Assembly (NCBI GenBank): GCA_913048385.1
Contig: CAJWVZ010000006.1
Span: forward strand, 1 to 64,000
DNA: 64,000 bases
Direction: 5' to 3'
Source of the DNA: an uncultured Gammaproteobacteria bacterium
GTDB taxonomy: Bacteria; Pseudomonadota; Gammaproteobacteria; Pseudomonadales; Pseudohongiellaceae
The notes under the pieces: model-generated
What the model saw: the letters and a program-made list of their open reading frames with translations, nothing else
Told to the model about the DNA's origin: nothing
Database searches by the model: none
In this document: piece by piece, positions 20,676 through 27,330 of the stretch
How the letters are laid out: every line of letters starts with the position of its first letter
Numbering within the stretch: position 1 is the stretch's first letter
Position numbers and translations under genes: made by a program

Positions 20676-22514
20676 ATGATCAAAGCGACTACGCTCTCTA
20701 TTTTTTTTGCATTGGCCCTCCTAACTAATTCGGTCATGGCCGCCCAAGAATCAAGGATTAACACTGACCCGAATTTTAATCCGGACCCCACTTTATTTAA
20801 GGGTGCCGCCAATAATATCTGGATCGAAGTTTTGTTTAAGGCGGCTCCTGCTGCAGGTTCGGATAGTGTCAAAGTGGAAAATCTCAGAGTAGATCTGAGG
20901 CCTGACCGCGAGATGACCTTAAACGTGGAAATTTACAACCCAGAGGGAGCGATCCCATTGATTGTCACACCCGGCGGCATGGGAGACATCGAAGGTTTCG
21001 GCGCATTTGCAAAAAATCTGGCCGCTGCCTCGAGTGACTTAAAGGTCATTATCATGGATCGGCGTAATCTTGGGCGGTCAGAGGTCTCTTTTGCAAATGA
21101 CGAACCTTTGGGTGCTGAGGAGGCAGAGGACCTCCATGTCCTGTTACAGCGGTTAAAGATTGAATCTGCAATATTTTATGGGATGTCTTCTGGATCCCGC
21201 TCAAATATGGTTTTAGCAGAGCGGCACCCCGAGCAGGTGGACGCGCTCATCATCGCGCCGCTCACGGGCGGCCCAATCGCTGCGCAGCGCCTGTCGGACG
21301 AATATTTTTTGAGCTTTTTAAGAGATGATAGTTTGACCTCGATGGAAGCAGTAGCTCAAACGCCACTGTGGGAGGCATATTTGGAGCGCAATAGTTCGGA
21401 ACTGAAAGAAATTTTTTTTGAACAAAACGTAGAAGACTTCTTGGCTACAATGAAGATGACTGGAGAGCACCTAGCCTCCTTTCGTGCAAAAACGACGCTC
21501 GGAATGACAGACGAGCAGCTTATATCACTCGATGTACCTGCCACACTCATACTCCATCACGGCGACGAGATCGACTTTTTACACCCAAAGGTGAACTCTA
21601 GGGCTGCGACTACGTTAATCAAAAACTCCTCCTTTAAGATAGCGCCTAGCCTCGAAGCGATTGTAAATGTGGTCTTGCCGTTCGTGAAAAAGCACACCTC
21701 GGCTCTCGAACCAAAGAATATGGGCGAGGTGATAAATTCAGCGGCTAGGGATGCTGAACCTACTTTCACGGCGGATGGTCAGACAATGTATTTCAATTGC
21801 TTCGACCGGCAAGGTGAGAAGGGTTCCGATATCTGTGTTAGCCACCTTCAGGGAACAGAGTGGACCGAGCCGTCGATCGTATGGGAAGTCAGCACAAGAG
21901 ACTATTTGGAGGTCGAGCCTTTACTGTCTCCGGATGGCCAGCAACTTTATATCATGAGTACTAGGCCAGGAGGCAAGGGTGGGATGGATATCTGGGTTAG
22001 TGATCTTGTCGCCGGAAGCTGGACGCCACCTCGCAATTTAGACGGGCCGATAAACTCTGCATACGCCGACCATTGTCTCTATTTTGCAGGAGAGGAATGG
22101 GAAACCGCTTATTGGACTTCGACTCGCCCGGGAGGGTTCGGTGGGAACGATATTTGGACATCCGATCGGATCGATGGTATCTGGCAAGATGCCAGAAACC
22201 TCGGCCCCAACGTTAATTCAGCAGCCACAGAACATCATTCTCTGCCCTCACCCGACGGAAATTCGCTCTACGTTACAAGCATTCGAGAGGGAGGATATGG
22301 CGGAGAAGATATTTTTGTAACTACGCGTAACGCCGATGGGGTCTGGGGTGAATTGGTAAATCTTGGCGAACGAGTTAATTCTGATCAGCACGACCGTTGT
22401 CCTGCCTTTTCTCCAAATTTCAAGACTTTCTTTTTTGACTCTGAGCGCTCCGGCGGTTTCGGCGACAAGGACCTATGGTCTGTGCCATACAGTGCGATCG
22501 AAGATATTCGATAA
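20676..22514 (+). CDS. Exported alpha/beta hydrolase fused to a PD40 beta-propeller
   Basis: A 612-residue protein with a signal peptide (MIKATTLSIFFALALLTNSVMA). Residues about 80-345 form an alpha/beta hydrolase: LIVTPGGMGD, IMDRRNLGRSE, nucleophile elbow YGMSSGSRS and acid region LHHGDEIDFLHP. The final catalytic His is not seen where expected (KIAPSLEAIVNVVLPF). Residues about 355-605 are a WD40/PD40-like propeller with repeats ending in GGKGGMDIWVS, GGFGGNDIWTS, GGYGGEDIFVT and GGFGDKDLWSV. Such propellers bind peptides, glycans or partner proteins. AGGAG precedes the ATG. Control by the divergent TetR gene is likely. Confidence 0.85.
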   Translation: MIKATTLSIFFALALLTNSVMAAQESRINTDPNFNPDPTLFKGAANNIWIEVLFKAAPAAGSDSVKVENLRVDLRPDREMTLNVEIYNPEGAIPLIVTPGGMGDIEGFGAFAKNLAAASSDLKVIIMDRRNLGRSEVSFANDEPLGAEEAEDLHVLLQRLKIESAIFYGMSSGSRSNMVLAERHPEQVDALIIAPLTGGPIAAQRLSDEYFLSFLRDDSLTSMEAVAQTPLWEAYLERNSSELKEIFFEQNVEDFLATMKMTGEHLASFRAKTTLGMTDEQLISLDVPATLILHHGDEIDFLHPKVNSRAATTLIKNSSFKIAPSLEAIVNVVLPFVKKHTSALEPKNMGEVINSAARDAEPTFTADGQTMYFNCFDRQGEKGSDICVSHLQGTEWTEPSIVWEVSTRDYLEVEPLLSPDGQQLYIMSTRPGGKGGMDIWVSDLVAGSWTPPRNLDGPINSAYADHCLYFAGEEWETAYWTSTRPGGFGGNDIWTSDRIDGIWQDARNLGPNVNSAATEHHSLPSPDGNSLYVTSIREGGYGGEDIFVTTRNADGVWGELVNLGERVNSDQHDRCPAFSPNFKTFFFDSERSGGFGDKDLWSVPYSAIEDIR

Positions 22515-22796: not shown

Positions 22797-23936
22797 ATGA
22801 AAGCATTTTACGAAGACTTTAAACTAGGCATTATCGGTGGCGGACAACTCGGTCGTATGCTGTTGCAAGCCTGTTCTAATTTTAATGTGACTTCCTGTGT
22901 GCTTGACCCGAGTGAGGACGGACCTTGCAGTGTCTTAGCGAGTGAGTATACGAAAGGGTCATTGCTTGATTTTGAGGCTGTTTATTCTTTTGGTAAACAG
23001 CTTGATATGCTCACCATTGAGATAGAAAACGTTAACGTTGAAGCCCTCTTTCAACTTGAGAGGGAGGGTGTTGCGGTTTACCCTCAGCCACGTGTGATAC
23101 AAATCATTCAGGATAAACGAGTTCAGAAACAATTTTATATAGATAATGAGATACCGACAGCTGACTTTGTTTTGGTGGAAAACCGCAGCGATATAGAAGC
23201 CCAGGTTGGATTTTTTCCGGCATATAACAAGCTAGGGAAAGGAGGGTATGATGGCGGGGGCGTGCAAAAACTAGAAAGCAAACACGATATACCAAAGGCC
23301 TTCGACGATCGTGGGTTATTAGAGAAGGTTATAAACTTTCAATCTGAAATTTCTGTTATCGCGGCCAGAAATGTTAAGGGCGAAATCAGTGTGTTTCCAG
23401 TGGTTGAATGTGTTTTTCATCCAACGTTAAATTTGGTGGATTACTTGGTCTCTCCGAGTTCGCTGCCCACCGAGATTCAGCAAACTGCAGAGGAGCTTGC
23501 AAAAAAAACCATTGAAAGGCTCGATATGGTTGGAATACTCGCAGTAGAAATGTTTGTCACGACTGACGGTGAAGTCTTAGTCAATGAGGTAGCGCCACGC
23601 CCTCACAACAGCGGTCATCAAACGATTAACGCCAATGATACCTCTCAGTATGAGCAACATCTTCGAGCAATTTTTGGTTTGCCTCTTGGCTCGACAGGGA
23701 TCACAAAGCCTTCAGTAATGGTGAATCTATTGGGAGAAGAGGGATATACCGGCTCGGCAATTTATGAGGGATTAGAAAAACTTTTAGCTATCCGAGGATC
23801 GAATATTTTTCTTTATGGCAAACGCATCACCAAGCCATATCGGAAAATGGGCCATGTTACAGTTCTTGGTGATGATTTGGATGATTTAAAAAGAAAGGTT
23901 CAATTAGTAAAAGAAGCAATAAAAGTAAAGGCGTGA
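22797..23936 (+). CDS. purK: N5-carboxyaminoimidazole ribonucleotide synthase
   Basis: A 379-residue ATP-grasp enzyme that converts AIR, bicarbonate and ATP to N5-CAIR in purine synthesis. Visible are the N-terminal GIIGGGQLGRML, the IEIENVNVEAL block, KLGKGGYDGGGVQ (ATP-grasp loop), VEMFVTTDGEVLVNEVAPRPHNSGH and QYEQHLRAIFGLPLG. The N-terminal extension (MKAFYEDFKLG), DPSEDGPC, LDFEAVYSFGK and the IQDKRVQKQFYIDNEIPTA segment resemble Bacteroidetes PurK much more than the shorter gammaproteobacterial form, as I recall these families. There is no purE beside it. The gene may have been acquired by transfer. Confidence 0.93.
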   Translation: MKAFYEDFKLGIIGGGQLGRMLLQACSNFNVTSCVLDPSEDGPCSVLASEYTKGSLLDFEAVYSFGKQLDMLTIEIENVNVEALFQLEREGVAVYPQPRVIQIIQDKRVQKQFYIDNEIPTADFVLVENRSDIEAQVGFFPAYNKLGKGGYDGGGVQKLESKHDIPKAFDDRGLLEKVINFQSEISVIAARNVKGEISVFPVVECVFHPTLNLVDYLVSPSSLPTEIQQTAEELAKKTIERLDMVGILAVEMFVTTDGEVLVNEVAPRPHNSGHQTINANDTSQYEQHLRAIFGLPLGSTGITKPSVMVNLLGEEGYTGSAIYEGLEKLLAIRGSNIFLYGKRITKPYRKMGHVTVLGDDLDDLKRKVQLVKEAIKVKA

Positions 23937-23970
23937 GTAAAATGACCATTAAATGCTTTCGATATCTCTG

Positions 23971-26034
23971 CTAGAAGTCCAAGTTAAGCGTTATGCCATA
24001 TCGCGCGGGCTCGCCCAATTGCGTATAGCTTTTAGGGTTATAGTTATCTCTCGGATCATTACCAAAGAAAAATCCACGGACTAAGTAGTCCTGGTTATTA
24101 ATATTCCTTCCCCAGATAGTAAGCCTCCAGTCTTTCCGGCTGTATCTCACGCTAGCATTAAGCAAGTTATATTTCTCTGATTGGCCATTGTGGCTATCGG
24201 AGAAATAAAACCTGTCTCTGCCTTGCAAGTTAGCATCAAATTCTATAGCAGAATTGAGCTTAGCGCTGATCCCTAATGTGTATTGATAATTTGGCGCGTG
24301 GGCTTGTTGTCTACCATTTAAGTTTTCACCGGCGGAGTTTATGAAGGTCTTGTATTTGGTTTTTAAAATACCAGCCGAGCTGTAAAGCATCACTCTCTCA
24401 GTCGCATTAAACTCTCCAGATACCTCTAATCCGTAATTGGATCCGCTGGCAGCATTTCCGATATATTCTATAAATTCAGAACTCCCGTTTGAGCGAGTTT
24501 GAACGAGAGAGCTAGAAATTTGGACGTCAACCCTGTCCATAAAAAAGAGTGTTACCTGAGTTCTTATTTTTTCATTGTATTGGGAGCCCTTAAATCCTAG
24601 TTCATAATTCAATAATCTCTCCGCATCAAATTCGCGAAACTCTTTGTCGAGAGTTCCATCAGTATTAAACCCACCGGTTTTATAACCCTGAGAAACGCTC
24701 GCATAAAGAATGTTGTCCTGACCCGTTGTGTAAGTTAATGCAGCTTTTCCGCCAAATAAATTCTTGTTGGGTGCAAAATCAATTTCGTTGGAGTCGTTGT
24801 AGGCCGCGTTGAAGTGCTCTGCACGCACTCCGAGAGTTAAATTCCAATTTTCACCCAACTGCGAGTTTAGTTCTGCATAGGCAGAGGATCGATTGGTTCG
24901 ATACTTGCTGTAGAAATTCTCAGAAAGAAAAGTGTAGTTTCTTTGCAAATGAGACTGTTGCTGTAAAACATAAACGCCGAAAACCCAGTCGGTAGTATCA
25001 GAAAAGATTAAACCGGAATCGGTCGACACAAACCGGATCTCGCCACTTTTTGTTTCTTTTTTACGTAAGTACTGATCGGTCGAGGAGTATTCCCAAGGAT
25101 GAAATCCATCAAAGACCCAGTCCTCATCGTATCCGTAATCAATTTTTGAGTTTGCGTAGCCGAGCAGAGTTTCGACCGTAAATTTTTCGAACTGGGTAAG
25201 TGACAGGTTTGCGCTTAAAGTTTTAGATTTTTGCCGATCTGCGCCAGGTGAGTCTGAGAGTGTGTCGCGTGTGTTGTCTAGGGAGAATGCGTCATAACCA
25301 TTATCAATATTGATAAATGAGGAGATAACATCGATCTGCGTATGTTCCGATGGAGACCACTCGAGTTGGCCTCGCATTATTCTCTCATCTCGAAAACTAG
25401 TATTCTTTCTCAAAAATTGATTGTTGTTGAAACCGTCTGTTGAATGATTTTGAGCTGAAAATCTGTATCGTAATTTTTCAGAGATTGGTCCCGACAGGTA
25501 TCCAGAGAGGCCTTTACTATCATAGTTGGCGTTTTCAAGTTGTAGTCCATAAGTTGCGCTTGATGATGGTGATTTGCTTGCTATATTTATTAGCCCCGCT
25601 AAAGCATTCGATCCGTAGCGGGTCCCCTGGGGCCCGAGCAAGATCTCAACCTGCTCAACGTCGTAAAGTAATGCTGTAGTACCGATACCACTGAAGTCGA
25701 TTCCATCAATAATAACTCCTACTGAGGAATTTAACGGCTCAGAAAATTGACCGCGCTCTCCGATTCCTCTGATTTGATAAAAACGAGCACGAGAAGAGCC
25801 TGAGGATGAATTGACGTTGGGCGCGTTAAGCAAGATTTCCTCAAGGTGGTGGGCGTTTTTTTTCTCAATAATTTCAGAGCCCACGACGCTAATGCTGGAC
25901 GAAATATCCAGTGCGTTCGACTTTCGATAATCTGCTGTAACGATGATTTCGTTTATTGTCGCAGTATTCGATTGCGCAGTAAGGGATGAGTTAGCCAGGA
26001 TGACAGCGGAGAAAGCAATTACAATTCTGAACAT
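23971..26034 (-). CDS. TonB-dependent receptor for thiamine (riboswitch-controlled)
   Basis: A 687-residue outer-membrane receptor. I start it at ATG 26034, with a GGGG ribosome site 5 nt before it and a signal peptide (MFRIVIAFSAVILANSS); the frame is open to a TTG at 26064. A TonB box-like INEIIVTAD precedes the plug, which has LNAPNVNSSSGSSRARFYQIRGIGERGQF (first and last parts), VEQVEILLGPQGTRYGSNALAG and the usual barrel. It ends GITLNLDF with a C-terminal Phe. Its TPP riboswitch and the upstream PnuC-type transporter indicate uptake of thiamine or a precursor. Confidence 0.88.
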   Translation of the reverse strand: MFRIVIAFSAVILANSSLTAQSNTATINEIIVTADYRKSNALDISSSISVVGSEIIEKKNAHHLEEILLNAPNVNSSSGSSRARFYQIRGIGERGQFSEPLNSSVGVIIDGIDFSGIGTTALLYDVEQVEILLGPQGTRYGSNALAGLINIASKSPSSSATYGLQLENANYDSKGLSGYLSGPISEKLRYRFSAQNHSTDGFNNNQFLRKNTSFRDERIMRGQLEWSPSEHTQIDVISSFINIDNGYDAFSLDNTRDTLSDSPGADRQKSKTLSANLSLTQFEKFTVETLLGYANSKIDYGYDEDWVFDGFHPWEYSSTDQYLRKKETKSGEIRFVSTDSGLIFSDTTDWVFGVYVLQQQSHLQRNYTFLSENFYSKYRTNRSSAYAELNSQLGENWNLTLGVRAEHFNAAYNDSNEIDFAPNKNLFGGKAALTYTTGQDNILYASVSQGYKTGGFNTDGTLDKEFREFDAERLLNYELGFKGSQYNEKIRTQVTLFFMDRVDVQISSSLVQTRSNGSSEFIEYIGNAASGSNYGLEVSGEFNATERVMLYSSAGILKTKYKTFINSAGENLNGRQQAHAPNYQYTLGISAKLNSAIEFDANLQGRDRFYFSDSHNGQSEKYNLLNASVRYSRKDWRLTIWGRNINNQDYLVRGFFFGNDPRDNYNPKSYTQLGEPARYGITLNLDF

Positions 26035-26037
26035 AAA

Positions 26038-26075
26038 AACCCCAATAGAATTTACTATTTTCAATTTTTGGGGTT
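26038..26075 (-). promoter_or_regulatory. SD-sequestering hairpin, riboswitch expression platform
   Basis: On the minus strand, AACCCCAA (26075-26068) can pair with TTGGGGTT (26045-26038). The second arm contains the GGGG ribosome site 5 nt before the ATG at 26034. The hairpin would hide that site, so control is probably at translation. The first arm could also pair with the GGGG of riboswitch helix P1. Confidence 0.65.
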
Positions 26076-26108
26076 AACTTTGAACTGCAGAATATATCTT
26101 CGATCGAC

Positions 26109-26190
26109 AGGGGTCGCAGTTACCTATCCCTACGCCAGTACTACCTGGGTCAGGTTCGAAGGGTCATATTCTCAGGCCTAGGCCACCCCT
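26109..26190 (-). ncRNA. TPP riboswitch (THI box)
   Basis: Minus strand. Helix P1 is AGGGGT (26190-26185) with ACCCCT (26114-26109). Between them are the conserved blocks CTGAGA, ACCCTT..GAACCTGA and GGTAGTACTGGCGTAGGGA, which are the diagnostic THI-box elements. It binds thiamine pyrophosphate and should lower expression of the receptor starting at 26034. Confidence 0.95.
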
Positions 26191-26237
26191 TAGGAATCGG
26201 CAATATAATTTAGTTTTTTCTCTTTTACAATATAAAT

Positions 26238-26750
26238 TTAGAATAACAAGATTTTTTCTAGACGTTCTTTTTCTCCACCGGTTACCAAAGAATGAGCTAA
26301 CCCATAATGTTGAAGCTTTTCAGTATAGCGATTGAACAATTCGCTTCGGTTGTTTGGGTTTTCACGCAGACCATCATGTTCCCAAGGAATTTTATAGTCG
26401 CAAAGAAGGTAGTGTCTATCCAACTTATCTCGCTTAAAGTTTTTTTCAAATGTGTCGTAAATCCAAGGGTCGCAGGTCCCATACTTAAACTCACTCCAAA
26501 TCATAATGACAAGTAAATCTGTATCACAAATTATCTTATTCAAGGATTGATTTAGGATCTCCCTCTCCTTTTCATGCTGCAGCTTTGCGATTATTAGCAG
26601 GTCATCTCTGTGGTAATTTGGAGTTTTTTCTAAATAATTTCTTGCGATTTCGGGGACAAGCGGACGGCCCCAGCGTTCAGAAAGCTGTGTTGCTAGAGTG
26701 GTTTTTCCAGAGCATTCAGCTCCGGTGATGACTATAATTGGTGTGTTCAT
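26238..26750 (-). CDS. NadR-like P-loop kinase, probably acting on thiamine or a related vitamin
   Basis: A 170-residue P-loop protein: IIVITGAECSGKTTLA (Walker A), the PEIARNYLE motif typical of NadR-type ribosylnicotinamide kinases, and ICDTDLLVIMIWSE as the Walker B/substrate segment. NadR here has no nucleotidyltransferase or regulator domain. The gene overlaps the end of the PnuC-type gene by 35 nt, so the two are coupled. In the setting of a TPP riboswitch and thiamine receptor, a trapping kinase for imported thiamine is more likely than nicotinamide riboside kinase, but this is inference. Confidence 0.8.
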   Translation of the reverse strand: MNTPIIVITGAECSGKTTLATQLSERWGRPLVPEIARNYLEKTPNYHRDDLLIIAKLQHEKEREILNQSLNKIICDTDLLVIMIWSEFKYGTCDPWIYDTFEKNFKRDKLDRHYLLCDYKIPWEHDGLRENPNNRSELFNRYTEKLQHYGLAHSLVTGGEKERLEKILLF

Positions 26751-27330
26751 GAAGATAACTTTTTTGCCATGTTTTAAATCCTAGCAGTGCCATGCCAATG
26801 TACAGGACGTACAATAGGCTATAAAAAAATATTCCTTTATAAAAATATACCCCAGCGGCAACAATATCGATAAAAAGCCAAAGCCCCCAGCACTCGATCC
26901 TCTTTCGACTTTGTAACCACATAGCGGATAAGCTTAAGATACTTGTTGTACTGTCCCAGTATGGTAAATCCGCATCAGAAAATCTGGACAACAAATATCC
27001 ACTAATAAAGATACAGATTAAGCTCAAGACTGATAAAGCAAGAAGCATCCTCTGTTTTTCCCTGCCAATGTTGGCCTTTAACTTTTTCTCAGTGTCCGTT
27101 TGAAGCCAATAGACCCAGCCATATAGATGCATGAACAAGTAGAAAATATGAAGAGCAAAGTCGGCATACAGTTTGGAGGCATAAAAGATATGGAGTGATA
27201 TAGCAATATAGAAAATACCAAAGGGCCAGGTCCAGATATTTTGTCTTATTAACAACCACACGGCTATCACGCCGAAAAGCACACCAGCCAATTCCAGCGA
27301 ACTAATTGTAAGAAAAATATTGTTTATCAT
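26716..27330 (-). CDS. pnuC: PnuC/PnuT-type vitamin transporter
   Basis: A 204-residue inner-membrane protein with about seven hydrophobic helices and a family signature: WTWPFGIFYIAISLHIFY, then YADFALHIFYLFMHLYGWVYW. After the third helix, PYWDSTTSILSLSAMWLQSRK and ECWGLWLFIDIVAAGVYFYKG match the second half of PnuC proteins. PnuC homologs move nicotinamide riboside; PnuT homologs move thiamine by facilitated diffusion and rely on intracellular phosphorylation. The linked kinase and downstream TPP-controlled receptor favour thiamine. No riboswitch is seen before this gene itself. Confidence 0.88.
   Translation of the reverse strand: MINNIFLTISSLELAGVLFGVIAVWLLIRQNIWTWPFGIFYIAISLHIFYASKLYADFALHIFYLFMHLYGWVYWLQTDTEKKLKANIGREKQRMLLALSVLSLICIFISGYLLSRFSDADLPYWDSTTSILSLSAMWLQSRKRIECWGLWLFIDIVAAGVYFYKGIFFYSLLYVLYIGMALLGFKTWQKSYLHEHTNYSHHRS

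Follow-up and report, generated by a model that had tools for sequence, protein, structure and literature searches.

With high probability, a locus on the minus strand of the window provides a thiamine auxotroph with a complete route for salvaging the vitamin, in which a TonB-dependent receptor, the carrier PnuT, and a NadR-derived kinase act together with ThiL, and in which a riboswitch governs the receptor only. The window is the whole stretch of DNA analyzed, 64,000 nucleotides of an uncultured gammaproteobacterium (GenBank assembly GCA_913048385.1, contig CAJWVZ010000006.1, positions 1 to 64,000). The kinase of this locus very probably traps imported thiamine and fills the missing thiamine-kinase step, an activity predicted from its sequence and genomic context. 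It is also probable, with somewhat less confidence, that the NadR-derived family forms an additional, undescribed type of bacterial thiamine kinase in the Gammaproteobacteria and Bacteroidota, one that replaces ThiK and thiamine pyrophosphokinase and stands outside TPP-riboswitch control, such that uptake alone is switched.

In the proposed mechanism, the TonB receptor would carry thiamine across the outer membrane, an energized and costly step, and PnuT would let it pass the inner membrane by facilitated diffusion. The kinase would trap it as thiamine monophosphate (TMP), and ThiL, encoded elsewhere, would convert TMP into TPP. Once formed, TPP would bind the riboswitch in the receptor leader, a hairpin before the start codon would hide the Shine-Dalgarno sequence, and receptor synthesis would stop. 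PnuT and the kinase would be expressed from a separate upstream unit lacking a riboswitch, so that trapping capacity stays on. From the evidence presented below we infer the substrates of the three proteins, the TMP product, the translational mechanism, and the constitutive expression of the kinase.

Pfam and Rfam searches place the four elements in the minus-strand order, and at the coordinates, given in a preliminary description of this DNA: a PnuC/PnuT-family carrier, a NadR-like kinase, a TPP riboswitch, and a TonB receptor. The carrier, PnuT (26716-27330; 204 aa; PF04973, E=2.4e-49), is an inner-membrane protein with thiamine as its predicted substrate, and is encoded by the only PnuC-family gene in the window genome. 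The kinase gene (26238-26750; PF13521, AAA_28, E=4.2e-28) encodes a 170-aa ribosylnicotinamide-kinase-like protein and overlaps pnuT by 35 nt (26716-26750). The overlap is not a chance feature because it recurs in relatives of the same layout (type A, defined below), five with a PnuT that is just 47-57% identical and one at 97%. Downstream lie a sigma-70-like promoter motif (26202-26230) adjoining the aptamer, the aptamer itself (26110-26200; RF00059), and the hairpin AACCCCAA/TTGGGGTT (26038-26075), a putative expression platform that encloses the Shine-Dalgarno sequence of the receptor and has equivalents in relatives. The OMthi-like TonB-dependent receptor (23971-26034), which contains plug and barrel domains (PF00593, E=2.4e-25; PF07715, E=1.6e-17), lies directly 3' of the TPP riboswitch, as its counterparts in relatives do, and is predicted to import thiamine. 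Its start is the ATG at 26034, as the preliminary description implied; the TTG at 26064 that is listed mechanically as a start falls within the pre-start hairpin and was rejected.

Two layouts of the locus were found among 37 genomes of the genus-level sample (Pseudohongiella/OM182 clade). In type A (the window and seven relatives), pnuT and the kinase gene are followed by the riboswitch and receptor, all on one strand, with about 3 kb inserted in one of them. In type B (eight relatives), the riboswitch, receptor, and PnuT run in one direction and the kinase is divergent. Type A and type B kinases are intermixed in the kinase tree, which does not place the origin of the window kinase. The PnuT tree contains two separate lineages: type A carriers group with those of Cyclobacteriaceae and one gammaproteobacterial PnuT, and type B carriers with those of other Pseudomonadales. 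Judged from these trees, the clade has one kinase and two carriers.

Beyond the genus, a search of 84,980 GTDB species genomes yielded 536 kinase-related stretches, of which the best 80 loci were examined. A TPP aptamer is present in 53 of these 80 (model built in this analysis; Gammaproteobacteria and Bacteroidota). None was detected within reach in the remaining 27, which counts against the thiamine assignment. Together with the TPP riboswitch carried, one each, by all 16 genus genomes that encode the kinase, these counts bear out the co-occurrence of the kinase with THI boxes that had been proposed as a check. Many Bacteroidota loci display the order of the window (pnuT, kinase, riboswitch, receptor). 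In other gammaproteobacteria the kinase, at times another gene, the riboswitch, and the receptor follow one another, and PnuT is not nearby. With respect to the aptamer, the kinase is upstream on the same strand in 34 of 52 scored loci, divergent in 18, and downstream in none.

The aptamer scores 65.8 bits against a gathering cut-off of 54.3 over the full model length, and it is the sole TPP riboswitch of the window genome, which is 98.9% complete. Searches for other RNA families near the locus returned only chance matches (E<=5), with nothing better upstream of pnuT, and the idea that pnuT is preceded by another riboswitch, or by one for NAD, was discarded on this basis. The promoter motif in the window (TTGTAA-17-TATATT) is by itself no better than chance, yet its position is conserved in relatives. 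The TTG occupies the same position in 8/8 type-A leaders, type-B leaders harbor TGnTATACT (TACACT in one) before the aptamer, and a TAnnTTTG element lies 9-10 bases upstream of the aptamer in 9/16 Bacteroidota leaders, the background rate being 0.075 per 94 bases. Given this conserved motif at the aptamer, transcription probably starts there, and the riboswitch and receptor probably form a separately transcribed unit whose promoter lies after the kinase stop and before the aptamer; the cluster is thus probably not one operon. A less likely arrangement, though one that retains an appreciable share of the probability, is a single transcript of pnuT, kinase, and receptor on which the riboswitch tunes the last gene alone, by translation. 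The gap of just 37 nt between kinase stop and aptamer and the translational appearance of the control favor such a transcript, but the promoter motif ends beside the aptamer in both phyla and the kinase is divergent in 18 loci. Read-through may occur in addition to the separate promoter. The preliminary description had put the riboswitch in the middle of one unit, before the receptor only; the latter part stands, whereas the middle is better understood as the space between two transcription units.

A hairpin containing the Shine-Dalgarno sequence precedes the receptor start codon in nearly all of 15 leaders (the window and 14 relatives), and its sequence varies among them (CCCC/GGGG, CUCCG/CGGAG, GUCUCU/AGAGAC). 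The Shine-Dalgarno sequence is 57-100% paired when the aptamer is sealed off in folding. Because the unconstrained fold of the window leader hides it too, equilibrium folding does not account for the ON state. The AACCCC/GGGGTTTTT hairpin was considered as a terminator and rejected: the equivalent hairpins of relatives have no T-run and contain the Shine-Dalgarno sequence, and translational control is preferred for this reason. The receptor is therefore likely under a translational switch operated by predicted TPP binding. Separate control of the outer-membrane step is well supported: the receptor comes after the riboswitch, in no scored locus is the kinase downstream of the aptamer, the promoter motif recurs in both phyla, and the Shine-Dalgarno hairpin is conserved. 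The earlier claim that this step is regulated apart from both the inner-membrane and the trapping steps is supported with an amendment, since PnuT is outside the riboswitch unit in type A but under the riboswitch with the receptor in type B, that is, in half of the genus genomes with the kinase. Only the kinase is consistently outside.

The supply of dissolved vitamin B1 limits the growth of many marine bacteria, and in many auxotrophs no enzyme is recognized that would phosphorylate imported thiamine. The window bacterium, a marine member of the Pseudohongiella clade, can no longer synthesize vitamin B1; its genome lacks true thiE and thiG, and thiG pieces are present in the incomplete genomes G001 and G034. 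Across the 37 genomes, 16 encode only the kinase, 16 only thiC, none both, and five neither (Fisher p=1.6e-6, uncorrected for kinship, with shared ancestry making the counts non-independent). None of the genus members with thiC (L080, for example) has a detected TPP riboswitch, which suggests that no canonical THI element controls thiC there. The PnuC family within the genus is confined to the kinase genomes and G027; it is absent from one kinase genome, G001, where the contig ends beside the kinase. ThiL, the TMP kinase, is above cut-off in the window genome and is kept in auxotrophs and nearly everywhere else. Thiamine pyrophosphokinase (TIGR01378) has no match in the window genome or in any of 58 relatives (0/58), nor in 50 kinase-bearing genomes outside the genus (0/50; a count of kinase-bearing genomes only, with a positive Bacteroides control). 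With thiC, thiE, and thiG lost, ThiL kept, and the pyrophosphokinase absent, imported thiamine must become TMP via some kinase. The conversion of thiamine into TMP is a pathway hole that the NadR-like kinase is predicted to fit. Four genus members (G004, G010, G015, and G016) are without thiC, kinase, and TPP riboswitch, and are either incomplete or supplied by another thiamine source.

The complete genome among the five without kinase and thiC, G027, carries an APH-type kinase instead, in the order riboswitch, receptor, PnuT, APH-type kinase. Its best curated family is ThiK (TIGR02721, E=6e-26, below the family cut-off). The same order is found in G039 and G046, and a ThiK-like match adjoins PnuT in G044 and G048, so that an APH/ThiK-like kinase takes the place of the NadR-like kinase next to PnuT in one species and in four other families. 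This non-orthologous displacement, in which the NadR-like kinase stands where others have a ThiK-like one, is the strongest single functional hint. Generic APH proteins (28-38 bits) were rejected as thiamine kinases because they are present alike in thiC-positive and thiC-negative genomes; the window genome has one such weak match, at 35.5 bits.

The kinase has the fold and catalytic residues of the NadR ribosylnicotinamide-kinase (RNK) domain, as judged from its confident AlphaFold2 model (pLDDT 89.9; best PDB match NadR 8x7f, TM 0.82, 21% identity). Shared with the NadR RNK domain (1LW7, 6GYF, 8X7F) are the fold, Walker A, Glu34, Arg37, Asp76-Thr77, Trp123, Asp126, and Arg129. In contrast to NadR, the kinase is stand-alone, with no NMN adenylyltransferase or HTH domain, and it matches only the RNK part of TIGR01526 (57 of 341 bits required) besides AAA_28. 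There is no match to TIGR02721, APH, or TIGR01378 (thiamine pyrophosphokinase/ThiN/Tnr3). A Trp85-Ser86-Glu87 segment, Cys117, and Arg129-Glu130-x-Pro132 form a signature that sets it apart from E. coli NadR, with which it shares the catalytic residues. In the carrier tree PnuT does not group with E. coli PnuC and 4QTN, and it differs from them at Asp155 and Trp35, with Asp155 in 53/56 THI-linked PnuTs versus Asn in these two references only; it is linked to the TPP riboswitch and thiamine genes, and thiamine is its predicted substrate.

These names and folds also suggest a nicotinamide riboside salvage unit, PnuC plus nicotinamide riboside kinase, that is a mere neighbor of the riboswitch-controlled receptor. 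Curated families do name both proteins PnuC and NadR, and the only kinase relatives of characterized function are NadR domains, at about 20% identity. However, this explanation is improbable. The presence of the pair tracks thiC loss and the TPP riboswitch and not NAD synthesis; nadA is retained in 56/58 relatives, so NAD is made de novo and nicotinamide riboside uptake is not needed for it. ThiK-like kinases replace the NadR-like one, and PnuT departs from both references at the residues above. An association of the pair mainly with NAD riboswitches had been named as grounds for abandoning the thiamine assignment, and Rfam detects none in the 27 aptamer-less loci or in the genus loci scanned. 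Least probable of all is a pyrophosphokinase that converts thiamine directly into TPP, which would suit the absence of thiamine pyrophosphokinase wherever the kinase was tested, but RNK relatives transfer one phosphate and the retention of ThiL without TMP synthesis by ThiE is sensible only if TMP arises in the cell. The preliminary suggestion of a NadR-derived thiamine kinase is thus retained as a prediction.

The THI-box/PnuT/OMthi salvage locus is already known, and the kinase assignment is the predicted new part. Bacteroides thetaiotaomicron salvages thiamine via OMthi, pnuT-tnr3, and TPP riboswitches (PMC5613172), in agreement with the earlier statement that PnuT and TonB receptors with THI boxes occur in Bacteroidetes. 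Both systems combine a TonB receptor with PnuT and an enzyme that phosphorylates thiamine, and in both these genes stand under or next to TPP riboswitches. The Bacteroides enzyme is Tnr3, of pyrophosphokinase type and downstream of pnuT (PMC5613172), whereas the window enzyme is NadR-like, would need ThiL, and is not part of the riboswitch unit. E. coli ThiK (YcfN; TIGR02721, APH fold) shares with the window kinase the predicted conversion of thiamine into TMP, followed by ThiL, but has an unrelated fold. ThiK and thiamine pyrophosphokinase are the known salvage enzymes (referenced in PMC8552899), and PnuT from Shewanella woodyi has been proven to act as a thiamine facilitator (cited in PMC7749635). 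No report of a NadR-like thiamine kinase was found in the open-licence literature. If the assignment is true, a gene that hundreds of genomes now list as NadR or 'AAA family ATPase' becomes a marker of thiamine salvage, the PnuC/NadR annotations in kinase-bearing genomes point to the wrong vitamin, and predictions of auxotrophy have to be revised. That the receptor belongs to the riboswitch unit and the trapping kinase does not is a directly testable rule.

Several other features were observed in the window and related loci. A type-A relative (G036; L063:7310-9667) has a 785-aa ORF inserted between kinase and riboswitch, consistent with two separate transcription units. In G056 (L078:7176-8260), a PnuC-family gene and then a 31%-identical NadR-like kinase come right after a metH-like gene; that genome has thiC and, elsewhere, a TPP riboswitch, and its PnuC carries the same Asp and Trp as THI-linked carriers. 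The L121 kinase groups with environmental gammaproteobacteria, and the contig title, a Klebsiella pneumoniae MAG, is probably wrong. In the window, purK (22797-23971) directly follows the receptor gene; purE, which is between purK and the receptor in type-A L063 and L071, is not found there. Further along (20676-22514), an unusual fusion combines an alpha/beta-hydrolase domain with PD40 propeller repeats.
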